Shown here piece by piece: positions 6,803-58,951 of a stretch of 64,000 nucleotides of DNA. The notes under the pieces were generated by a model that did not search any database, was not told the DNA's origin, and worked only from the letters and a program-made list of their open reading frames with translations. Each line of letters begins with the position of its first letter. Position 1 is the stretch's first letter. This DNA is from a virus: positions 1-64,000 of IMG/VR virus record IMGVR_UViG_3300028610_000244. One strand, written 5' to 3'. Position numbers and translations under genes: made by a program.

Positions 6803-7996
6803 CTATCTGTGTACAGTATAGCACATGGAAAGAATCGTGTCAAGTGATTTTTCCTGCATCACCATATTTTGTAACTCGGCAACGCTTACGTCTTTGGTCA
6901 TTTGTCCTGGCGGCAGCTCGGTGTCGAAGAACGTCTGGGTGAATTGGTTCAGCGTTTCCGGTGTCACGTAGCCCAGGAATAGCTTTAGATCGACGCGGCC
7001 CGGACGCACCAGTGCCGGATCAAGTTTCTCGATGTGGTTCGTCGTCATAATGATGACGCGACCGTGACTCACCGCGATTCCGTCCAGAGTGTTTAGTATT
7101 TCACTGATCCCACCTTTAAGCATCAAGAAATCGCCCTTACTACTCTTATCTTTTTCTGCGTCTCTGTCGCCGGTGGCCTCGTTTGAGTCTACGTCCTCGA
7201 TAACAATGAGTTCCTTGTCTGTACCCAGCTCTGTTATCGTGCTGAGGTTGCTTGCCGGGACTACCGCTACGTCTTGATTCAGGTGTGCCGCTATTGCCCG
7301 GATCAATGATGTCTTGCCGGTTCCGGGAGGGCCATGCAGTAGTATGCCGAGCTGGTACGGGATTCCGTGCAGGATGTACCACTGCTCTTTCTCGCGGAAA
7401 TCCTTGAGCGTCTTTATCAGCTCGTCTTTATCTGCTGCCGGCATCAGGATCGAGTCCAGGTTCCGCTTCGGTTGCTTGATTAGGTTCCAATCTCCGTCGC
7501 CGGAGTGCATCTTTAGCTTCGTCATCTCACAGTTCTCGTCCGGGCACCGCAGATTGTGGAGGATAGCATCAAACAGCTTGTGAGACCGGCCGAGCTTAGA
7601 GAGTGTGATCTCCTCTTTGTCCCGATCCGCGACAGTGTCGATTCTGTCGAGGTCCACCAATATAGGGACATGTCCGTACCACATCAAGTGCTGGCCGTAA
7701 CCCACCGCCTTCGTAGAGAAGTCACCACCCCACCTTCCGTTAACGATCTTGATCCTGCGGAACTTCTTGCTGTATCCTTTACTCTCGAACCAATTCATCA
7801 GGACGTAATAGCTCTCGTTGTTGGACGTCATCGTCATGGATGTGGTCAAGTGCTTCTTCACAAGGGCGGCGACGTTGTATGGCACTTTCCTGAGCAGGTA
7901 CGTGACTATGCCTATCAACCAAGCAGATATGGCTGCGGCCATGAATTCATTTCCGCCCGTGATGTCGTTAATCTTCTGTAGCAGTTGTTCGATCAT
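6803..7996 (-). CDS. BCS1-like AAA ATPase with N-terminal membrane helix
   Basis: A 397-residue protein with the BCS1 layout: a transmembrane helix at about 19-35 (AAAISAWLIGIVTYLL), a BCS1-specific middle domain, then an AAA module with Walker A GPPGTGKT at 222-229, Walker B LIVIED at 263-268, TTN sensor at 318-320 and RPGR at 331-334. BCS1 proteins move folded substrates across membranes in mitochondria; bacterial and phage homologues are uncharacterised. It has GAAGGGTAAGA before the ATG and follows a 35-residue membrane protein. Confidence 0.85.
   Translation of the reverse strand: MIEQLLQKINDITGGNEFMAAAISAWLIGIVTYLLRKVPYNVAALVKKHLTTSMTMTSNNESYYVLMNWFESKGYSKKFRRIKIVNGRWGGDFSTKAVGYGQHLMWYGHVPILVDLDRIDTVADRDKEEITLSKLGRSHKLFDAILHNLRCPDENCEMTKLKMHSGDGDWNLIKQPKRNLDSILMPAADKDELIKTLKDFREKEQWYILHGIPYQLGILLHGPPGTGKTSLIRAIAAHLNQDVAVVPASNLSTITELGTDKELIVIEDVDSNEATGDRDAEKDKSSKGDFLMLKGGISEILNTLDGIAVSHGRVIIMTTNHIEKLDPALVRPGRVDLKLFLGYVTPETLNQFTQTFFDTELPPGQMTKDVSVAELQNMVMQEKSLDTILSMCYTVHR
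6815..6843 (-). promoter_or_regulatory. Sigma70-like promoter
   Basis: On the minus strand TTGACA (6838-6843), a 17-bp spacer ending TGC, and TATACT (6815-6820). It lies inside the last codons of the BCS1-like gene and would transcribe 6748 and downstream genes. Confidence 0.85.
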
Positions 7997-10278: not shown

Positions 10279-10705
10279 GTCCGATAATAGCATGGGGAAA
10301 GGCCCCGTCCCAGCGGTTATTATCGGACGTTGATGCACGATTTTCGCAGCACAATGCACGATGTTATCGGACGTCAGGCAGCACAGGTTATCGGACCAAG
10401 GCAGGGCGGCTCACGTTATCGGACGTAGGTTATCGGACGTCGTTATTATCGGACCACACCACGTCCGATAACTGAGCGTGACATAACAGGGATTATCGGA
10501 CCAACGTTATCGGACCTCTCTAGGCTCTAGTCCGATAATAAAATCCGGGCTCAACAAACGTCCGATAAGAAGCACGTCCGATAATGTTACGAGGTGCTAC
10601 TGAGTGACGTCCGATAACATATCTGGCGATCAGATACGCATGGTCCGATAATGTTTGCGTGTGCATAGGGAGGAGGTCCGATAATCCGGGGCAGAATTAT
10701 CGGAC
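10279..10705. repeat. Left TTATCGGAC/GTCCGATAA array (17 copies)
   Basis: Exact 9-mers start at 10279, 10320, 10364, 10388, 10416, 10430, 10446, 10463, 10493, 10507, 10530, 10560, 10576, 10609, 10643, 10676 and 10697. The left half is mostly TTATCGGAC, the right half mostly GTCCGATAA. Separating sequences of 5-35 bp are unrelated. No gene is seen between 10140 and 10755. It is not a CRISPR, because repeats are short, in both orientations and irregularly spaced. A protein-binding array is inferred. Confidence 0.9.
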
Positions 10706-10754
10706 CGATGAGATGATAAGCTGGTAGGTTAAGCCAGCGGTAGGTTATAGGACG

Positions 10755-11999
10755 TCAATAGTATTCGCGTCGGTTGCCGTCCGCGTCGTATCCGTTAGCG
10801 TCAAGCCGGACAACGTCGGACATTGCATAGATTGCCGTATCGTCCGGCAACTGGTTTGCGGCAAACGTGTAAAGGATTGCCGCGAATAATTCCGCGTCGG
10901 TTGTATCGCCTTGCCAATTCTTGCCGATGCTGTTTTCATCGGTTGCATTGTCGGCGAATTCGATATCGTTCGCAAGATCGGCGTCGGCATAGACGACAAC
11001 ATTATAAATATTCAAGTGACTAATTACGTCGGCATTTGCGGCAAGCCAATTTAGTGTCCGGCTATATGTCTCTTGCGTTTCATCAGGCAAACCGATTAGA
11101 ATGTTAGGTATTAGCTTGACATTGCATCGCCTAAGCTTTTCGGTTGCCGCGTCGATTGTCTTTTCCGATGCTGGCTTGTGCATCGCGGCAAGTATAGCGT
11201 CGTTATATGTCTCTATTCCCAATTCGACATAACGAATTCCAGACGCGGACAAAAAATCATCGTCAAGTTTTAGCAATTGTGTTGCTGTAGTCTGCACAAT
11301 AAATCCGTCGAATCCGTCCATGTTGTCAACAAAGTATTGAGACAATAGCGGCAACAACCAAAAATTCTCACATTGTCCGAACGTCTTATCGTTTATGTAG
11401 ACAAGCGGACTATTTAGCCGGGCTATTTCGTCCGCTTGCTGATAGACGTCGGCGATTGACGTCTTGACTACGTCGTTCGGCTGTATACAGAATCGGCACT
11501 TGTGCCCGCAACCAGTAGACAACGTCAATCTTGCAATCGTTTTGGCACCAACAAAACTGGAATAGTCAATACCCGTCCGATAATCAGTGCCGAGCTTATC
11601 GCAGCAATCCCGCACAGAATCGCACCAAATAACGTTCGGTAGGTCCGATAAGTTTTCCCGGTCACAATATCCGCCGACAATCACCTTGCCGCTAAAACCG
11701 TCGGCAATCGTTCGGATTAAATGCCAATTGCAATCCAAAGCGGAAAATGCAAGGATATCATAGTCGGCCTGTTTGGCTTGTACGTCGGCGATTGACCGGG
11801 CAAACGTTGTCCGTGCATCGGGAAAATTGCGTTTCATTTCCGCTTGCCAAACAGGAATTTCCCAGACAGGACCGAGGCGATTATATCCCGGCAACGTCCG
11901 ATAAAGTTTATCGTAATATTCGGTTGCCTGTTTGTTCTCGTTTCGGTTTAGCAATCCGCTATAAAATTGCACCAACAGAATTTTCGGTCTTGTTCTCAT
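10755..11999 (-). CDS. Radical SAM enzyme
   Basis: A 414-residue protein. Residues 1-140 resemble a Rossmann/B12-like N-terminal domain (KILLVQFYSG, DYDILAFSALD, GKVIVGGYCD). The radical SAM core follows with CGHKCRFC (C164, C168, C171) binding a 4Fe-4S cluster, then YVELGIETYNDAILAAM and NILIGLPDETQET, typical of B12-dependent or HemN-like radical SAM proteins. Substrate unknown. The start at 11999 follows the island leader GGGGACAAGAGAA. Three copies of GTCCGATAA lie inside the gene (11575, 11643, 11896). Codon use is AT-richer than in genes outside the island. Confidence 0.88.
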   Translation of the reverse strand: MRTRPKILLVQFYSGLLNRNENKQATEYYDKLYRTLPGYNRLGPVWEIPVWQAEMKRNFPDARTTFARSIADVQAKQADYDILAFSALDCNWHLIRTIADGFSGKVIVGGYCDRENLSDLPNVIWCDSVRDCCDKLGTDYRTGIDYSSFVGAKTIARLTLSTGCGHKCRFCIQPNDVVKTSIADVYQQADEIARLNSPLVYINDKTFGQCENFWLLPLLSQYFVDNMDGFDGFIVQTTATQLLKLDDDFLSASGIRYVELGIETYNDAILAAMHKPASEKTIDAATEKLRRCNVKLIPNILIGLPDETQETYSRTLNWLAANADVISHLNIYNVVVYADADLANDIEFADNATDENSIGKNWQGDTTDAELFAAILYTFAANQLPDDTAIYAMSDVVRLDANGYDADGNRREYY

Positions 12000-12429: not shown

Positions 12430-12457
12430 AGTATACACTATATCCGGCAAGATGCAA
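12430..12457 (-). promoter_or_regulatory. TTTGCAT/TATACTTTAAGT promoter (island)
   Basis: Minus strand: TTGCAT (12452-12457), 16-bp spacer, TATACT (12430-12435), then TTAAGT. An AT tract (AAATTTTATTTTCT) precedes the -35, like an UP element. It directly follows the stop of the 12472 gene and serves the 12379, 12249 and radical SAM genes. Confidence 0.8.
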
Positions 12458-12471
12458 ATAGAAAATAAAAT

Positions 12472-13104
12472 TTATTCTTGCATAAAGGCAAAACAAGGCG
12501 TTTCACAAAAGATCGACCTGTATACCGACACAAAGCTTTTCGGATTCTTGCCGGATTCTCGCCGTATCGCATACCATAGTAAAGCCTGATAATTTGCTGG
12601 CTTTAAGCCTTGCCGTTTGGCGTCGGCCTGTATTCGCTTTTCTAGTCGGTTGTATAGCCTTGCCGTCAATTTCTTTTCTGGTATGCCATACGCTTGCAAA
12701 ATCCATGTGTCAATTGTGACCGCGTCAAGATTGCCTTTTAGATTCTCGGCAAACCGCGAAACCTTGGGACCGCTTATCGGACGTCCTTGTAGCGACCGAA
12801 TAACGTTTGTTAAATGTGCGGGCATACACTTAGCCAACAGATCGGCGAAACGGTCCGGGTTTAGTTTCCTGTCGATATACGCTTGCAATAGCCTTGCCGA
12901 TTGACGCCAATTGCGTTTGACGGATTGACGCGGCGATGTTGACGCCAAAATGTCAACAAACAGACGCCAATTGTCCCCGTATAATTCTTGTATCAAGTTT
13001 TTGGCGTCTGTATACCATTGCAAGGCTTTTCTATCCGCGACGTCTGGCTTGACGCGGCAGCGTAGTCTTATGTTATCGGACGTCGTTTTCGTTTTGGTTC
13101 TCAT
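12472..13104 (-). CDS. HhH-like phage protein
   Basis: A 210-residue protein. The core SGPKVSRFAENLKGNL followed by AVTIDTWILQAYGI, a K/Y-rich linker, GLKPANYQALLWYAIRR is the arrangement of a phage family with an endonuclease III-like helix-hairpin-helix fold (DUF7178-like, from memory). Catalytic residues are not certain, so DNA glycosylase activity is only a possibility. The ATG at 13104 follows the island leader. Two TTATCGGAC copies are inside (12774, 13073). Confidence 0.65.
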   Translation of the reverse strand: MRTKTKTTSDNIRLRCRVKPDVADRKALQWYTDAKNLIQELYGDNWRLFVDILASTSPRQSVKRNWRQSARLLQAYIDRKLNPDRFADLLAKCMPAHLTNVIRSLQGRPISGPKVSRFAENLKGNLDAVTIDTWILQAYGIPEKKLTARLYNRLEKRIQADAKRQGLKPANYQALLWYAIRRESGKNPKSFVSVYRSIFCETPCFAFMQE

Positions 13105-13982: not shown

Positions 13983-14312
13983 CTATATGTTTTCCGTTAT
14001 GCAAATAGAATCTGGCATAATTACGCAATTCTCGGCATAAAATTTGACTTGATCGGCAGCGTCCGATAATGTTTCAAACGTGTGCGTTTCCGCTTGTCCA
14101 TTTACTGCAATAATCAATTCGTATGTTTTCCGCCGTTTTAATGGTATGGTCAATCGGCGTTTTGATTCGCAAGCCAATACTTTCAGACGTCCGCCGTGCA
14201 TTTTCTCAAAACGTCCGATAACTGTTATCGGGTCTTTTTCCCTTGTGCAATATGTTGTTGTGCCGGTCGTTCGGCGTTTGTCGTTTCTCTCATAATCTAT
14301 TTTGTATCTCAT
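13983..14312 (-). CDS. Unknown 109-residue basic protein
   Basis: The most upstream island gene. Basic N-terminal half (DYERNDKRRTTG) and a hydrophobic-acidic C-terminal half. It follows the leader GGGGACAAGGCAA and carries two GTCCGATAA copies (14061, 14213). Confidence 0.6.
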   Translation of the reverse strand: MRYKIDYERNDKRRTTGTTTYCTREKDPITVIGRFEKMHGGRLKVLACESKRRLTIPLKRRKTYELIIAVNGQAETHTFETLSDAADQVKFYAENCVIMPDSICITENI

Positions 14313-14354
14313 TTGCCTTGTCCCCGTTTTGCTCTTGTTCGTTTCACTACTGAA

Positions 14355-14382
14355 AGTATACGCTACAATTCAGCCGATGCAA
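14355..14382 (-). promoter_or_regulatory. TTTGCAT/TATACTTTCAGT promoter (island)
   Basis: TTGCAT (14377-14382), 16-bp spacer, TATACT (14355-14360), TTCAGT. Preceded by A/T tract AAATTTTATTTTCT. It is the first promoter of the island. Confidence 0.78.
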
Positions 14383-14470
14383 ATAGAAAATAAAATTTAT
14401 TTTGCGTTTGGCGTCGGCGGTTTTGTGTCGTATGCTTTGCGTATACGATGATATTTTGTGGACGCTTTAC

Positions 14471-14918
14471 GTCCGATAATAATCGGCGGGCTTTTTCCCG
14501 CGACGTCCGATAAGGACCACGTCCGATAAGGAGGGCGGTCTACCTACTCGGAATTCGTCCGATAACGGCACGAGGTCCAGGTCCGATAAAAAATATATTA
14601 TCGGCGGAACTGCCGGGTCCGATAAGTGTCTAAAGTAATGGCACTGGAGGCAAAAGCATGTGACTTATCGGCGTGGTCCGATAATATCGAGATCGCGGAA
14701 TTCTGCGGCGGCGGTTATTATCGGACGAGGCCAATAATGTCGCGGGTTCTGCGTCGTGAGGCCAGGGATTACCGGACGTGTCCGATAATATCGAAACTGG
14801 TCTCTGAACCGGAATTGGATATTATCGGCAGCGTCCGGTAATGTGTCCAGGCTGGTTATCGGACGCTGTGGAGAAAATCAGTTATCGGACGTGTGGGAGC
14901 TGGTTAGTTTTATCGGAC
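14471..14918. repeat. Right TTATCGGAC/GTCCGATAA array (12 copies)
   Basis: Exact copies start at 14471, 14505, 14521, 14557, 14581, 14617, 14676, 14718, 14780, 14856, 14882 and 14910; several TTATCGGC near-copies lie between. Here GTCCGATAA dominates on the left and TTATCGGAC on the right. Together with the left array it brackets the island. No gene is seen from 14383 to 15096. Confidence 0.9.
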
Positions 14919-14926
14919 CAAAGGTC

Positions 14927-15063
14927 CAACCCACCGTTTACTTTTGGGCACGAAAAAGGCAACCCACCGTTTAGTTTTGGTCGAAAAAGGCAACCCACCC
15001 TTTGATTTTTGCCTCGAAAAAGGCAACCCACCGTTCATTTATTTTCCTTGAGTCCAACCCACC
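14927..15063 (+). repeat. CAACCCACC array, five copies at 31-33 bp spacing
   Basis: Copies at 14927, 14960, 14991, 15024 and 15055, all in one orientation and mostly followed by STTT. Steps of 33, 31, 33 and 31 bp equal about three helical turns. Three copies share the flank CGAAAAAGG. The array directly continues the right TTATCGGAC array and lies in noncoding DNA. Confidence 0.88.
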
Positions 15064-15096
15064 CTTTGTTTCAAGGTAATGTCACTAGGCCCCAGG

Positions 15097-15522
15097 TCAA
15101 GCAAATGTCACTCTATATGTCACCACCTTCGCCCAGGATTCAAGTGCTCTGAGTTTTTGAGACAGCGGCCAAAGTATAGGGCGGCGGGAGATTTCGACCC
15201 TCTTTGTCATGCCCTCGGACAATGCCCAGGAAAGTTGCTGGCACCGGCCATAAGTTGTAAAAGGTGTCGATGAGTAAGTCCTGGTTATTACTACCCTTAG
15301 TATTCTTTTCATATTATACATATTAAATTTATAGTTTGAGTCTAAAGAAATTTGACTATCTGTGACGTCCTGGGTATGAGAAATGTTAAGAATATGGTGA
15401 AACACTATGTTCTTCATGTTATTAAACCTAAGCCCAATGTCACTCAACACTTGTATGGTAGCACCTTTTACCAGTTCAAAACCGTATGAATATGTTCCTG
15501 AATATCTAACTCTAGTCCTCAT
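15097..15522 (-). CDS. Unknown 141-residue protein
   Basis: The ATG has GGGAGCAAGTCACT ahead. The middle is unusually AT-rich (about 15290-15430), unlike the flanks, and the C-terminal part has no obvious domain. The open frame is long, but coding status is less certain than for neighbours. Noncoding DNA at 15079-15125 just downstream holds three TGTCAC words. Confidence 0.5.
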   Translation of the reverse strand: MRTRVRYSGTYSYGFELVKGATIQVLSDIGLRFNNMKNIVFHHILNISHTQDVTDSQISLDSNYKFNMYNMKRILRVVITRTYSSTPFTTYGRCQQLSWALSEGMTKRVEISRRPILWPLSQKLRALESWAKVVTYRVTFA

Positions 15523-15555
15523 AGTGACTTGCTCCCAGACGTCGCCAACAACTTT

Positions 15556-16191
15556 TTAATAGTAATTCTCCATCACAGTTGCCTCTCCGGCTGCGTTTCC
15601 TGCCACCATCACGAGCCGCTGTTGTCTCCAAGACCGTCGCTCTTTTCTGTTTTCTTGCCTCGCCAAGACTTTTTCACTCCGTTTCCATGCAGCCTCGACG
15701 TCACCGGCTCGGGCATACCACACCCGACCAGACACCGGATAGCTCCAGTACCATGCCTCAGTTTGGTGCCGTAAAGCGTACCCTTTTTCGACCCTGTACG
15801 CAATCATTTCGCCCATTGTTTTACCCTGTTCCTGCACCAATTCCAGGGCCTTAATTGAGATGCCCAGCTCGGTCAAGACGCCAGAACATTTCAACGCAGT
15901 CACGACTCGGCTACGGTCGCTGTAAGGCATGTAGTATTTCCCACAGACCCCACACATCCGGCATACCCGCATACCCGCAGACACTCCGGCCAGCTTCTCG
16001 GCAGCAGTGAGTATCCGCTTGCATCCGTGTGGCATGTCACGCTTTCTCGGCACTCGTCGCTTCACTACGGCCTCACCGTGTCGCGGTATCCTGTTGCCGT
16101 TAGGCTCCTCGTAGTCGGTCCCAGGCGTGAATCCAACCCTCTTGGTGAATACAAATGGCTCCTTGCTCTCCTTAAACCTTATCCACCACAT
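15556..16191 (-). CDS. Unknown 211-residue basic protein with Cys cluster
   Basis: Contains CRMCGVCGKYYMPYSDRSR near residue 77-95, a possible half zinc site, and basic N- and C-termini. It starts at GGAGGTCGTGACATG and overlaps the upstream gene by 13 bp. Function unknown. Confidence 0.65.
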   Translation of the reverse strand: MWWIRFKESKEPFVFTKRVGFTPGTDYEEPNGNRIPRHGEAVVKRRVPRKRDMPHGCKRILTAAEKLAGVSAGMRVCRMCGVCGKYYMPYSDRSRVVTALKCSGVLTELGISIKALELVQEQGKTMGEMIAYRVEKGYALRHQTEAWYWSYPVSGRVWYARAGDVEAAWKRSEKVLARQENRKERRSWRQQRLVMVAGNAAGEATVMENYY

Positions 16192-41912: not shown

Positions 41913-44900
41913 TTATTTTGTCACCCATGCACCGGCTTCGTAGAAATTGAAGACGGCTGTTGTCGTGTTATAAATCACCATGCCATTGACCGCAGTCAAG
42001 GCGTTACGCTGTGTCGTAGTCATCTGTGCTGTTTCAAGAGCACCGCTCAACTTGGTACTACCGGCAGCACGACATCGAAGAATTTCTTTTATTCCCGAAG
42101 CGACAGTTTGGACCTGAATCACGAAATCAAAATCAAGATTACCTGATGTCGAATTCGCCTTATGGGCTCCGATCTCAGCACACAATACCGGAACGTCAGC
42201 GGCGTCAGTGTGATGCCCAGTGAATCCCATACCGCCACCTGAGCCTAGTTCCTGTGGTGTTGAGTCGTGAAAATTTGCTTGCATGTTGTCGGCGGACACG
42301 ACTTCGAGCGGCAACGTGTATGTAGCAGTTGCTTGAGTTGGGTCGCCTATCACGAGTTGTTCTGTGTGAATCCTACCCTCAACTCTGATTCCCATATCAA
42401 ATTCCAGGATACCATCAACGCCAACGTCGTTGTCGGTGACATACATCTTTGTACCGTCAGGACTGAATGTTATCGAGTTCGGCACGGTTGCAATCGTTGT
42501 CAGGTCCAGCGATCTTGAAAGTATGCCGGTTGTTATGTCCCATGCCGTTGACAGATCGTACTCGTGAATGTCATCTTCCGCCGAGCCATCCACTACATAC
42601 AAACGCCGGCCATCTGGGCTAAATGAGAAGCCCTCAATGTTGTCCATAGAGGCGTCGAACTTCGTCGTGTATGTTGCGGTAGTGACATCCCAGGCCGTAG
42701 TCAGTGTCCAGAGCTGGACTTCATTTAGTGTCCCATCACTGATGAACATCTTGAGACCATCGGGCTTGAAGCGGATACCTATCGGAGTCGTAGAGCTGGT
42801 AGATACGTCCTTTAGGTTCGTCGCGGATGCCGTCGATAACGTCCAAGCAGTTGAGAGCGTATACATGTTGACTTCATCACCGGCAGAACCGACAATGTAC
42901 ATCTTGGTTCCATCAAGGTTGAAGCAGACACCCATCGGATTGGCTTCCTCGGTGGTCGTGCTCATCGTAGATGTCCAGGTCATTGAGGACACATCCCACG
43001 GAGTTGAGAGAGCAAACTCATTGATCTCATCATCCACATTACAGACGATGAAGACCTTCTTGCCATCAGGGCTAAACGCCGAATCGTGCGGCCCAGTGCC
43101 CCAGGTGGCTAACGCAAACGTCTGCTTATATATTGCTGTCGTGGTGTTCCATAAATTATGATGACTGCCCTGAGTCTCACCATTAGTGTAGGTGGTGACA
43201 CCGTCGTTGATAAGCCCAGTGATCTCGACGTCTTGGAGTAGCTGGATGCCGTCAGTGCTGAATCGAGCCAGTACAGTTGTTTGCTGGTTGATTTCAGTCT
43301 CATTATAGCTCTGGACAGTGAGAGGCCCGCTCTGTTCTTTCTTGATGAAGTTGCTTGTGCCACCGACAAAGACGAACGCTGTTTCTCCAGGTGAATCAAA
43401 TCCACTTGGACCCTCTACGAGTATATTGTTACGAATATATGTGTAGCCGTCACTGTCTATGGAGGCAACCGTGACATCAGCACTGTCTTTGACATAAACT
43501 TTCTTGGCTCCGGCAGCATCACCAACCCGGAGAACCACATCCTCTGTAACCGACCTAATCCCCATCTCTGTCTGGCCCTGCATGTAGAGACCACCGACAG
43601 GGCTCCCATGAATGTAGGCTCGTCTGGCGGCGTTGATAAAGAGCCGGATATAGTCGTCGCCTTCGTCGGCCTTACGATAGATATAGAGCTTTTTGCCATC
43701 ACTAACATCACTAACATCGGTGTCACCGAAGCAAACAATGTCACCAGTGACATCAGGTTGGACCTTTAGGTCTCCTGTACTCCATATCTCAGGAGCCCTT
43801 ACTCCGCCAACCACTTTCAGCCAACCACCATACTCAAACCGAGCCACCTCTGTGCCGCTGTAGCCCATAGAGTAGATGGTCGTTACATCATTGCTGGCAA
43901 TCCGCAACTCATCACCGGCCTCGACCCCGATTGCGAAAGTAGTCAAATACATATTGAGCTTTGGTCCGGTCTCGTTGGGGAACTGAACCAAGTTCGGCTT
44001 GACAGTGCCAACGACCGTGAGAACGCCACCCGCATACGTGAAGTTATTACTGCCCACTAAGCCCGCACCCACCGAATTTCCGTAAGCGACTTGGCCTACA
44101 GTGAATCCCTGCAAGTCTGCACCGAAGTAAGAATGGTCAGTGACTTGTGCCGTCGTGATCGTGATGCCCGTACTCTTATCCCATGCAGTGAAAACAGGAT
44201 CGGTTTCGACCAACAGATAAGCCTGCAAGTCGGTGATCTGTGCCTCAGTGATTGTGATACCTGTACTCCGGTCCCAAGCCATGAAGACAGGATCGGTCTC
44301 ATCGCCGGTAACGAAATGATTCAGGTCTGTGATCTGCGACTCGGTGATCGTGATACCAGTCGATCTATCCCAAGCCATGAAGACAGGATCGGTTTCATCG
44401 GCGGTGACGAAATGATCGAGGTCGCTGATCTGTGACTCGGTAATTACGATGCCGGTGCTTTTGTCCCAGGCCGAGAAGACAGGATCGGTTTCTGTCACCA
44501 ATACATCTTGTCCGCCAGACTGCAAGCCAAAGGGTGCATTGACCACCCCGGCTGGAGATATGAAGAGTCGATAAGAACTGGTGTCAGCGATTGAAAAACC
44601 ACCTGCGGGAGTAGGTGTCCCGGTGGCCCCTGCTCTCAAGAACCATCGGTCCCCACCTGGAGCCGTGTTATTGATTTCAATACATGCGTTTTGCCCGCCA
44701 ACGGACTCGGAGCCCTTCACAACGAGTCTATTATTTATCACCGGGATAGTAGCTGTGCCCGTGACCACCAAGTCACCAATCGCTACGTCGTCGCCGGTGA
44801 CAGTAGGTGACACCGTTGTTCCGACTCGCTTCCAGTGCTCACCATGCAGAACATTAGCACCGAACTCTTCCCACTTGTCGGCGTTTGCCGCGAATGTCCC

Positions 44901-53590: not shown

Positions 53591-53619
53591 AGTATACTAC
53601 ACAGATTGATTCTATGCAA
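53591..53619 (-). promoter_or_regulatory. TTTGCAT/TATACTTTAAGC promoter
   Basis: TTGCAT (53614-53619), 17-bp spacer, TATACT (53591-53596), TTAAGC; preceded by the A/T tract AAATTTTATTTTCT. Confidence 0.8.
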
Positions 53620-53746: not shown

Positions 53747-54547
53747 TTATTGAAAGATGCGAATACGTAGCTCCGCATCAAGTCTGTTGAGTGGCGTGGC
53801 AAAGCCCATAGAGGCTGTGCTGTTTAGTCGGGCTATTATGATGCCGGCGACCTTTCCATCTACTATGGCAGGTCCGCCGCTGCATCCACCCCAAGCAAAA
53901 CCGTCGTAGACAAATTTATTTTTCCAGTTTTCACTTGACACGCGAGCCCAAGTTATGATAAGCTGGGGCTCGTCGCCGAATGGCGTGCCTATGCAAATGA
54001 CCTCAGCACCAAGAACAGGAGACGGACCCATATCCAACCACGGCCCACATCGGCCTTCTATAATGACCAGGGCTAGATCGTCATTGAAGTCCTCAAGAAC
54101 CTCTACGGCTCTATACTCTACGCCGTCAGGTCCGGTAACGAAGACGGTCTCATCCGCTATTCGGTCATCCACTACGTGCTTCGCAGTAAGCAGCTTATTA
54201 TCGGACACAAAGACGCCGGTGCCCCGTGTCGGTCCACGGAATACAGTTATCGGACCATTTTGTCTCGGCTTCTGCATGACCCGGAGAGTGGCCGAGCTTG
54301 ACCGTAATCGTAGAAGGTCCAACCCACCGTTTGCAGAACCCAACCCACCGTCTGTTAGGTCCAACCCACCCTCCGTAGAACCCAACCCACCCTTGAGCTG
54401 AGCGATCCTGTTGTGCAGAGAATCCAACCCACCCTCTTGCATGTGGTTCCAATGTCGCAGGCTGACTAAGTCACTCTCTTGGCGGTTGCACAAGAAGACT
54501 GTTAATCCAAGTGTCACGGTAAGCAAGATGTTTGTCAGTGTCTTCAT
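53747..54547 (-). CDS. Trypsin-like (S1C/HtrA-type) serine protease
   Basis: A 266-residue protein with N-terminal signal anchor (ILLTVTLGLTVFLC), a GGL heptad-like linker at 39-78, then a chymotrypsin-fold protease with His124 (LLTAKHVV), Asp157 (NDDLALV) and Ser223 (GGCSGGPA). Probably exported or periplasmic. No PDZ domain. The linker is encoded by five CAACCCACC copies on the plus strand, and two TTATCGGAC copies fall in the catalytic domain. GGGAGAACT before ATG 54547. Confidence 0.85.
   Translation of the reverse strand: MKTLTNILLTVTLGLTVFLCNRQESDLVSLRHWNHMQEGGLDSLHNRIAQLKGGLGSTEGGLDLTDGGLGSANGGLDLLRLRSSSATLRVMQKPRQNGPITVFRGPTRGTGVFVSDNKLLTAKHVVDDRIADETVFVTGPDGVEYRAVEVLEDFNDDLALVIIEGRCGPWLDMGPSPVLGAEVICIGTPFGDEPQLIITWARVSSENWKNKFVYDGFAWGGCSGGPAIVDGKVAGIIIARLNSTASMGFATPLNRLDAELRIRIFQ
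54198..54255 (+). repeat. TTATCGGAC pair inside the protease gene
   Basis: Exact copies at 54198-54206 and 54247-54255, 49 bp apart, within codons around VSDNK and GPIT. Other isolated copies: 28446, 33602, 37708 and 52319. Confidence 0.85.
54320..54433 (+). repeat. CAACCCACC array inside the protease gene
   Basis: Copies at 54320, 54341, 54362, 54383 and 54425: steps 21, 21, 21 and 42 bp. All share an orientation and most are followed by STC/STT as in the 14.93 kb array. In the gene frame they encode repeated GGL units. Confidence 0.9.
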
Positions 54548-56288: not shown

Positions 56289-56312
56289 TCTGTTCTCCAA
56301 TCCAATATCACC

Positions 56313-56341
56313 AGTATATCAACATCAAAGCTCTTTGTCAA
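56313..56341 (-). promoter_or_regulatory. Sigma70-like promoter
   Basis: TTGACA (56336-56341), 17-bp spacer, TATACT (56313-56318). Embedded in the last codons of the 56325 gene; drives the 56288 gene. Confidence 0.87.
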
Positions 56342-56564
56342 CCATTTTCAGGATTATTTTCATCTTTTGGTTCGGCAGCTCCTGGACATAGCCCACCCAC
56401 AATTGGACGCACTCTGGGCACCTACGCAGAATAGCCCCATGCCGGTTGAGTACGATCCCGTACAGTACAACCTTATCACGAGCCACGATCACGGGCTTGC
56501 CTAACGCACTCTCACACTTCCTACAATATATCTTTGGATACTGCTCTTGTCTCGGTGTTCCCAT
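56325..56564 (-). CDS. 79-residue zinc-binding protein
   Basis: Begins MGTPRQEQYPKIYCRKCES; second Cys pair CPECVQLW. Basic. AGGAAGG before ATG 56564; overlaps nothing but lies close to the primase stop. Function unknown. Confidence 0.62.
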   Translation of the reverse strand: MGTPRQEQYPKIYCRKCESALGKPVIVARDKVVLYGIVLNRHGAILRRCPECVQLWVGYVQELPNQKMKIILKMVDKEL

Positions 56565-56575
56565 TAGTTGCCTTC

Positions 56576-58951
56576 CTAGAATGGTGGTTGGTCGTCGTTC
56601 TCGGGTACGTCTTGCCATGCTGTTTTGAATCCTGCTACCTTGTTCCAGGAGTCACGGCACTCCTCAAGTGATGGGATAACATAGCATCTTGGATTGGTGC
56701 AGAATGAGAGCCCAGTGGCGTATGAAGCTCCCGGTTGCGGGCTGACCTTCACTGTCCTTATGGCAGGATGTCCACTAGGTAGAATGCGTGTAAGGAATTT
56801 GGTTAAACGGATCATAGAGCATCGGTTCATGTAGGTGCCGGCGTATTGCTTTACGAAGTTGATGAAGTCGAGGAGCATCTCTTGTTTTGGTAACGCAGTC
56901 ACCCAGGTTTCGTGACGTGCAAACACTCGGCCCTCATGTAGCTTATCATACCACCACGATTCCTCGGGGCTGAGGTTGAGTTGTTTCTGTTCGTTCAGGG
57001 CGTCAGTGGCGGGGGCCTCACGGAGATTTACGGCCGTAAGGTCCAATGTCATCAAGTGATGCAGCAACGCCTCATAGCCGCCGTTGTCCAGCTCGGCTGC
57101 GATCTCACCAAAATATTTTGTATCATTGCGATGATCTTCTGCGGTATCGAGGATGAAAAATCGACGGTCGTCCATTGCAACAGGTACAACCCACTCACTG
57201 TTCGAGGCCATCATAAGGTGAATATAGTTCGGAGAAGCTTCGGAGTCGATACCTTTCTGCTCGACAACGATGTGCTCCTCTGTGATGATAGCTTTGAGGG
57301 TGCCTTCGGCCTTCTTGTCACCAGCAAAGAACGCTTCGTCAGCGAAGAGCATGACTGTGTCTCGCAGGTGTGCGTTGAACGAACCCACCAGATGCTTTGA
57401 TTGTGAGATTTGTAGGAAGTGCTGTCCCCATAGCTTGCCGATGGCTTTGGCAAAGAACGACTTGCCTGTTCCCTGCTTACCCCTCATCACCACTGCGGTG
57501 CCACCGGGGTGATTCGGGTTCTGTACTGCATCCGCCAACCATGTCATCAGATAGGTGTAGTGCCCTTCATTGCCGAGACAGATGTTGGTCTTGATGTGCT
57601 CAAGGAACTTTTCGCAGCTTCCAGGTATGGCCTCACATGTGAACCCACGCCATAGATTGTAGGCTCCGGCCACTTCCTGTCCGGGCACGAATACAATTGC
57701 ATCGAATTGCCTGCGGTTATTGTTCTGTAGCCACCACTTACCCATCGGCATGAACTGGTCAGCACCATTTTTATCCTCACCACATTTAACTTTGCGGTGC
57801 ATGTATCGGTTCGTGAAGTCCGCGAAGGTCTGCATCTCCAGCTTCGGTCTATCAAATGCGTAGTCGTGCTCCTCGGAAATGACTCGGCACTTGCCGCCGA
57901 CCGAGGCGATGACTGCGTGACGTGCGTTCAGCTCTTTGAGGGCAGGATCAATAGCCCATTCCTTCGACCGTTCGATCTGTCGCAAGGCGTAATACTCAGC
58001 ACGCGATCCAAGAGAGATCACTGATTCAGAGATGGCGAAGTCTGGGTCTGTGATGATGGAGAAGATCACGTCATCGGATATACCCGCACGGTGCAGCTCA
58101 CAACAAACGCAGAACAGCGTCTCTGATCTGGAGTCAAACCGATTCGGATCGTCTGGGTCTCGCCCCACGTTGATGAGTACCTTAACCCACCCCTTGACAA
58201 CCTTTGTGCCCAGCTTGTCCAGCTCATCGAGATCACCTATCCGGGCAACGTTGGATGTATTGACGTTGGGAGTCAGCTCTGACTTACCTCCGCTAAACCC
58301 AGAAGAGGCGGACGTCTGGACTGCTTGTGCAGCGGTGAAGTCTGCTACCGGATATGATGCCGTGGCGTCGAAATGAATCAGCTCGGCCATGACCTCCTCA
58401 CGGCCCTTCTTACGCTTCTTCGCATTCGGCCGGTTCATGGTCCCAGGCAGTCGCATGATCCTGCTGATGTCGTGACAGTTGTCACCACCGAGCAATATCT
58501 CAAGCTGCATGTTGTACCGCTTGGCATCTTCGGCCTTGGCGACGTCACCATCTATCTGTATCGGTTCTTCGAGTCGCCAGAAGGCTTGGTAGCCGCCACC
58601 CGAGAAGATGACACATGTCGGCACAGGCTTGAACCCACGAATCTTCTCAAGGATTCTCGGCTGTTCGTCAGAGAGCGGTTCACCGGCACGGGGATCAACA
58701 TCGACGTGTAAATACTCAACTGTTGCAATGTCTTGGCGTGAAGCTTTCTTGGTGACGGCTGCTGTCGTGGGATTGACTGAGAAGTAAATGTTATGGCCGG
58801 GACCATTCTTGGTGAGCCAAGCGTTAACTTTCTTTTCTGCTTTGGCCTCGAAGGTTACAGTGTTGAGCTTTCCGCCCTCTACTGGAATCGCCGTCAGCAC
58901 CCACGGTCCGTTCGGCCTGAATTGTTTCAAGAAGTCAAGAGGTAGTGACAT
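56576..58951 (-). CDS. Primase-polymerase / helicase fusion
   Basis: A 791-residue replication protein. N-terminal archaeo-eukaryotic primase-like domain: HVDVD (Asp84, Asp86), SGGGYQAFWRL at 117-127, ISRIMRLPGTMN near 162-173. A central linker has CVCCELH. The C-terminal half is an SF3-like helicase (DUF5906/VapE-like): Walker A GKQGTGKS at 491-498, LFADEAFFAG as Walker B region, MMASNSEWVVP as sensor, DDRRFF as arginine finger. It would prime and unwind the phage replication fork. Confidence 0.88.
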   Translation of the reverse strand: MSLPLDFLKQFRPNGPWVLTAIPVEGGKLNTVTFEAKAEKKVNAWLTKNGPGHNIYFSVNPTTAAVTKKASRQDIATVEYLHVDVDPRAGEPLSDEQPRILEKIRGFKPVPTCVIFSGGGYQAFWRLEEPIQIDGDVAKAEDAKRYNMQLEILLGGDNCHDISRIMRLPGTMNRPNAKKRKKGREEVMAELIHFDATASYPVADFTAAQAVQTSASSGFSGGKSELTPNVNTSNVARIGDLDELDKLGTKVVKGWVKVLINVGRDPDDPNRFDSRSETLFCVCCELHRAGISDDVIFSIITDPDFAISESVISLGSRAEYYALRQIERSKEWAIDPALKELNARHAVIASVGGKCRVISEEHDYAFDRPKLEMQTFADFTNRYMHRKVKCGEDKNGADQFMPMGKWWLQNNNRRQFDAIVFVPGQEVAGAYNLWRGFTCEAIPGSCEKFLEHIKTNICLGNEGHYTYLMTWLADAVQNPNHPGGTAVVMRGKQGTGKSFFAKAIGKLWGQHFLQISQSKHLVGSFNAHLRDTVMLFADEAFFAGDKKAEGTLKAIITEEHIVVEQKGIDSEASPNYIHLMMASNSEWVVPVAMDDRRFFILDTAEDHRNDTKYFGEIAAELDNGGYEALLHHLMTLDLTAVNLREAPATDALNEQKQLNLSPEESWWYDKLHEGRVFARHETWVTALPKQEMLLDFINFVKQYAGTYMNRCSMIRLTKFLTRILPSGHPAIRTVKVSPQPGASYATGLSFCTNPRCYVIPSLEECRDSWNKVAGFKTAWQDVPENDDQPPF

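Follow-up and report, generated by a model that had tools for sequence, protein, structure and literature searches.

Helically phased direct repeats beside AT-rich DNA in a YuA-like phage: a candidate iteron-type origin with a second repeat set inside a protease gene

Introduction

Phased iterons with AT-rich neighbours are a known arrangement. The origin of P4 is laid out as two sites, ori1 and crr, and the stoperators of mycobacteriophage L5 carry an asymmetric GGTGG-like word in one orientation. In phage lambda, the origin consists of iterons and an AT-rich tract within a coding gene (PMC7466680), in SaPI Rep and in Cch2 a C-terminal domain binds the origin iterons (PMC7581432), and in P4 the winged helix of the alpha protein binds the origin repeats (PMC4234260). 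Iterons are also found in partition sites, as parC, tubC and omega parS are direct repeats wrapped by adaptor oligomers, and are sometimes split or repeated (PMC5016525).

We have analysed a phage locus which resembles several of these systems in part. The window, a stretch of 64,000 nucleotides (positions 1 to 64,000 of IMG/VR record IMGVR_UViG_3300028610_000244), belongs to a record of 97,868 bp in which the minus strand carries nearly every gene. The phage has a major capsid protein that shares 70% identity with its counterpart in Pseudomonas phage YuA, and a primase with 47-49% identity to those of YuA/Ab18/Pam3-type phages, and we therefore regard it as Mesyanzhinovviridae-like (YuA-like). 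Five exact copies of CAACCCACC form an intergenic, helically phased array on the plus strand (14927..15063; copies at 14927, 14960, 14991, 15024 and 15055), and a second array lies inside a protease gene. The 97.9-kb record holds 13 copies of CAACCCACC, ten of them in these two phased arrays and three as singletons.

As in iteron origins, the copies are direct repeats in one orientation at near whole-turn spacing, with an AT-rich region nearby. Like P4, the phage has short direct repeats at two separate sites per genome, and its candidate initiator combines a primase with a helicase; it differs in that alpha has a Toprim primase where the enzyme here is of the PrimPol type, in the sequence of the repeats, and in having one of the two sites within a protease gene. 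SaPI5 Rep and SCCmec Cch2 match the primase-helicase fold predicted for our candidate and also have an origin of short direct repeats. The SaPI origin, however, is directly downstream of rep, and the AT-rich-flanked array of the present phages is not placed in this way, as it lies 12-42 kb from the primase gene; only the coding array is downstream of it, at ~2 kb and with small genes between. Lambda likewise has direct repeats beside AT-rich DNA, and iterons which may sit within a coding gene, but these are in the initiator gene itself, whereas here they are in a protease gene and in intergenic DNA, the initiator is of a different type and the AT-rich segment, at 84-243 bp, is farther from the iterons than lambda's directly adjacent tract. 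Nor does the array have the form of an L5-type stoperator set, since those are dispersed single sites and 10 of the 13 copies here are clustered in two phased groups, leaving few singletons.

Results

An earlier note on this DNA, made from its letters, had described five same-strand CAACCCACC copies in a noncoding region, spaced by 33, 31, 33 and 31 bp, and a recount agreed with it. With a helical repeat of 10.5 bp, the spacings come to 3.14 and 2.95 turns, and none of 40 dinucleotide shuffles of the window (0/40) gave any 9-mer with five copies inside 140 bp, so that the array exceeds chance. TRF picked it up at period 33 and also at period 64, and the spacers in the window are themselves partly repeated. 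No plausible gene runs across the array or is present elsewhere in the surrounding 1.2 kb (14312 to 15556). On its near side, it does abut the right-hand TTATCGGAC/GTCCGATAA array (14471..14918), as had been claimed: the final TTATCGGAC ends at 14918, 8 bp before the first CAACCCACC. On its far side is a minus-strand gene without known function (15556..16191). The motif extends rightward as CAACCCACC-N-T-Y, the T being present at 28 of 30 intergenic and at 16 of 16 coding sites. Rfam gave no match to a known RNA element. PARCEL-like repeats were dismissed as unrelated, being 25-residue protein repeats, and a G-quadruplex on the GGTGGGTTG strand was considered, but would not explain fixed whole-turn spacing with spacers of 22-24 bases.

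Among 2.9 million viral contigs, a scan for CAACCCACC in three spaced copies found such triple arrays in nine stretches, against one for the reversed-word control, and a looser scan for pairs, which proved mostly unrelated, served as background. Three of the records found, G001, G004 and G006, belong to relatives of the window phage, G006 being a near-duplicate of G001; a further relative, G013, was recovered through its TTATCGGAC array. Compared gene by gene with the window, G001, G004 and G013 are syntenic and circularly permuted, with shared proteins mostly 40-77% identical. Both arrays, intergenic and protease-gene, are present in the window and in all of its syntenic relatives (4/4), and the intergenic one keeps its position, with a TTATCGGAC array on one side and, on the other, the homologue of gene 15556-16191, which is syntenic at 38-41% identity. 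Neither array occurs over the first 50 kb of the genomes of YuA, Ab18 and Pam3, or at viral-contig loci whose primase is at most 56% identical, and sequence-based searches with the neighbouring genes yielded few relatives.

Within this clade, contigs begin at differing points, as circularly permuted genomes do, and small terminases are able to bind phased repeats, both of which would agree with a pac-like region bound by the small terminase. Nevertheless, contig ends never fall at the arrays, the large terminase gene (94445-95947) is ~17 kb off around the circle, and the array is duplicated within the protease gene; we regard a role in packaging as very unlikely indeed.

The spacing itself was compared by counting sites in register with at most two mismatches. 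The series is 33-31-33-31 bp in the window, 11-21-31-11-21-31-11 in both G001 and G013 (half of the G013 sites read CGACCCACC) and 21-21-11-21-31-21-11-11 in G004, and L213 has a single spacing of 33. Together, the 27 intergenic spacings from these five records fit a period of 10.55 bp with a mean cosine of 0.93. Such phasing would arise by chance with a probability of ~3e-5 when 11 separate events are counted and the period is left free, and of ~0.005 if the calculation is restricted to the four distinct lengths. A super-period of 63-64 bp, or six turns, is common to the window, G001 and G013. As G001 and G013 have identical series despite diverged spacers, insertions and deletions must have been excluded and substitutions tolerated. 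The proposal that all sites lie on one face of the DNA has therefore gained strong backing, and the search for the same spacing in relatives, which the earlier note had suggested, found it conserved. We consider it very probable that this is a phased protein-binding array.

Arrays with 11- and 21-bp spacings would also suit a centromere-like site, at which an adaptor of the ParR, TubR or omega type serves in the segregation of a plasmid-like prophage or as the nucleus of a nucleoprotein complex, and same-orientation iterons are indeed present in parC, tubC and omega sites, there within a wrapped complex (PMC5016525). In those systems, however, an NTPase or adaptor gene would be expected, and none was found adjoining the array: no partition operon is next to it, and ParM, ParA, TubZ and RHH were not matched among the flanking and conserved genes tested. 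A partition function is accordingly an improbable explanation.

Beyond the intergenic array lies a segment of AT content 0.73 (15282..15425), a candidate DNA-unwinding element; measured over 60, 80 or 120 bp, no other part of the 98-kb record is as rich in AT. In each of the four genomes compared (4/4), the segment that ranks first in AT content over 60 or 80 bp is found 126-235 bp beyond the intergenic array, and over 100-120 bp it ranks first or second; these genomes are kin, so this represents one conserved arrangement and not four independent events. G001, G004 and G013 have a further AT-rich segment (rank 2-5 over 60-80 bp) on the other side, so that the composite is bracketed by AT-rich DNA in these three. 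The suggestion of a composite locus is thus supported by the joint occurrence of TTATCGGAC array, CAACCCACC array and AT-richest segment in four syntenic genomes. The AT-rich part also holds a loosely conserved element, TAAGTCCTnnTWTTACTAYAC (TAAGTCCT..TATTACTATACTTAATAACTT), in the four genomes, and the region has neither clean 13-mers nor inverted repeats of at least 11 bp. In G004 (L202 18200-18430), extra ATCGATACAA-like repeats occur in a noncoding stretch past the phased array.

In the relatives, the GC skew does not switch at the array and so lends no support to an origin, but nearly all genes of this phage run one way, which masks such a signal. A skew jump at 15 kb was considered as a sign of an origin and rejected, since it is absent in relatives and coincides with a 30-kb insertion. 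This part of the window (~16200-47000) consists of ~30 kb of mostly small genes of unknown function, largely missing from the 60-64 kb relatives, and differs in GC skew. Elsewhere in the window, a gene at 6803-7996 encodes an AAA ATPase carrying a BCS1_N domain, which is characteristic of mitochondrial BCS1 and unexpected for a phage (the G013 copy is 53% identical), and a 96-bp tandem repeat is found at 44229-44492 within a structural gene of 1266 residues.

The second CAACCCACC array (54320..54433, plus strand; copies at 54320, 54341, 54362, 54383 and 54425, in steps of 21, 21, 21 and 42 bp) lies within a minus-strand gene for a trypsin-like protease (Trypsin_2, 53747..54547), the product of which has an N-terminal hydrophobic segment followed by a GGL-repeat stalk encoded by the array. 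It is without a strong AT-rich neighbour. On the minus strand the word reads GGT GGG TTG, or Gly-Gly-Leu, and the 21-bp steps give a 7-residue GGL repeat. This coding repeat, as well as the partly repeated window spacers, could be taken to mean that tandem duplication of Gly-Gly-Leu spread the word by slippage and that the phasing is accidental. Several observations argue otherwise. The GGL codons of the window protease are invariably GGT GGG TTG, for which the codon usage of this phage gives an expectation of p 0.007 per copy, spacer sequences diverge at fixed lengths, and steps of 11 and 31 bp, which break the frame, occur in intergenic arrays as well as in the protease genes of L212 and L214. 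In the latter, two further relatives which have a primase 72% identical to that of the window and are so close to each other that we counted them as one event, the protease-gene array has steps of 11, 11 and 31 bp. As none of these is a multiple of three, the copies fall into different frames and specify different residues. The frame is broken while the helical face is kept, which means that selection is for the DNA with its helical phase and not for a protein repeat. On the basis of the frame-breaking steps and the invariant codons we rejected a coding repeat or slippage as the source of the arrays, and we give very little credence to a mutational by-product.

A possible binding protein is the primase-helicase. 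The gene (56576..58951, minus strand) encodes a PrimPol/SF3-type enzyme with a C-terminal winged-helix-like domain. Its AlphaFold model has a mean pLDDT of 84, and Foldseek matched it to NrS-1 PrimPol (E 2e-14), to PriRep1 with dsDNA (E 2.6e-9) and to the SaPI5 primase-helicase (E 3.5e-9; 7ola, 7pds), as well as to D5-type proteins of ASFV and poxviruses, so that the model places the enzyme in the D5/SaPI5 Rep structural class. Residues 686-773 have a predicted winged-helix topology and, modelled alone, a pLDDT of 74. The best alignments of this domain were to winged-helix folds, namely RFX (Z 5.6) and the C-terminus of NrS-1 (Z 4.9), all low scores below 6; Foldseek by itself gave no significant match for the domain, and the P4 alpha domain was not among the VIA-align matches listed, which is no evidence of its absence. 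The C-terminal domain is the fastest-changing part of the primase: it is 55-70% identical among members of the clade that bears the arrays, against 21-27% in most relatives outside this clade and 41% in L217; its identity falls more steeply than that of the catalytic domains. A pRN1-like stem-loop origin beside the primase gene was rejected, as 56289-56575 appears to be coding and does not fold better than shuffled sequence.

The right-hand TTATCGGAC/GTCCGATAA array is irregularly spaced and has its sites in both orientations, as do the TTATCGGAC sites of the left-hand array (10279..10753) at the other border of an accessory module; TTATCGGAC is also dotted through the coding genes of the module. 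It is plausible that the TTATCGGAC and CAACCCACC arrays are read by separate, putative proteins. Triple TTATCGGAC arrays were found in 61 viral stretches of 33-67% GC, against 10 for the reversed word, and GTCCGATAA is part of Myxococcus dif, a resemblance to a Xer/dif half-site. Between the two arrays, a minus-strand DUF7178 gene (12472..13104) is kept in four genomes. We take its motif GPKVSRF...VTIDVW to be reminiscent of helix-hairpin-helix glycosylases, and some mycobacteriophage relatives of the protein carry the annotation 'glycosylase'. The module also has a radical SAM gene (10755-11999), present in the window phage only among the four compared, the C-terminal DADGNRREYY of which is similar to the end of another module protein, in L014. 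Extended low-complexity repeats (SAARAPAAV / HHGGRRSGSR; L014 7884-9029) adjoin the left TTATCGGAC array of G001.

Twelve near-identical promoter-like elements (TTGCAT-N16/17-TATACT), with AT-rich DNA upstream, are found on the minus strand of the window, at 12457, 13612, 14382, 22323, 27690, 28559, 29017, 29420, 32772, 37668, 52289 and 53619. One of them (14355..14382, TTGCAT-N16-TATACT) lies beyond the right-hand TTATCGGAC array and would drive the module leftward; another (53591..53619) is just downstream of the protease gene, and its hexamers are separated by a palindrome, ATAGATTTAATCTAT, in G001 and G004. In the annotation of YuA, five 28-bp repeats are called sigma70 promoters for which a phage cofactor is needed. 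As promoter-like elements lie downstream of both window arrays, the main rival to a replication function is transcription control, in which the arrays would be operators or enhancers for a phage regulator acting, perhaps by looping, on these promoters. Both loci of the window share one order along the transcribed strand, that of CAACCCACC array, TTATCGGAC sites and promoter-like element (14382, 53619), and the element past the protease gene is conserved in 4/4 genomes. On the other hand, most of the 12 promoters have no array, the relatives lack such a promoter beside the intergenic array, a separation of 550-700 bp is long for a bacterial operator, and nothing in this reading accounts for the AT-richest segment beyond the array. 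Regulation of transcription therefore seems rather unlikely to be what the arrays are for.

Discussion

The explanation that we favour, tentatively, is that the array may be an iteron-type origin similar to those of P4 or SaPI, accompanied by a second, out-of-origin iteron set. The CAACCCACC sites would be iterons, that is, direct-repeat binding sites for a phage protein that recognises a specific DNA sequence, and the whole-turn spacing would allow bound subunits to stack on one face and build a single complex. The sequences themselves show the sites with their phasing, their conservation in relatives, the constraint at DNA level and the AT-rich neighbour; the binding protein, the melting of DNA, the looping and the origin activity itself are steps that we infer. 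Most plausibly, the sites would be bound by the primase-helicase (56576-58951), acting as initiator through its C-terminal winged-helix-like domain, and its binding may open the adjacent AT-rich segment and so initiate replication. The protease-gene array, 10-39 kb off, could be a distant iteron set which loops to the initiator or titrates it, similarly to P4 crr or P1 incA.

A more specific and more doubtful possibility is a split origin, with a single initiator for two phased iteron sets that lie far apart and form a looped complex for initiation or copy control. One set would sit by the AT-richest DNA of the genome, and the other in a coding gene, where steps of one, two and three turns give helical phase precedence over the reading frame.

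The presence of two conserved arrays, one intergenic and the other in an unrelated gene with helical phase kept over frame, is unusual, as is the fixed series of one, two and three turns common to two genomes. To our knowledge, no origin candidate has been put forward previously for any YuA/Mesyanzhinovviridae-like phage. If our interpretation is correct, this locus would be the first such candidate, and the protease-gene array would be a clear example from nature of selection for helical phase within coding sequence. It would also become testable how phages with a PrimPol-helicase pick the start of copying, and why they have two iteron sets tens of kb apart.
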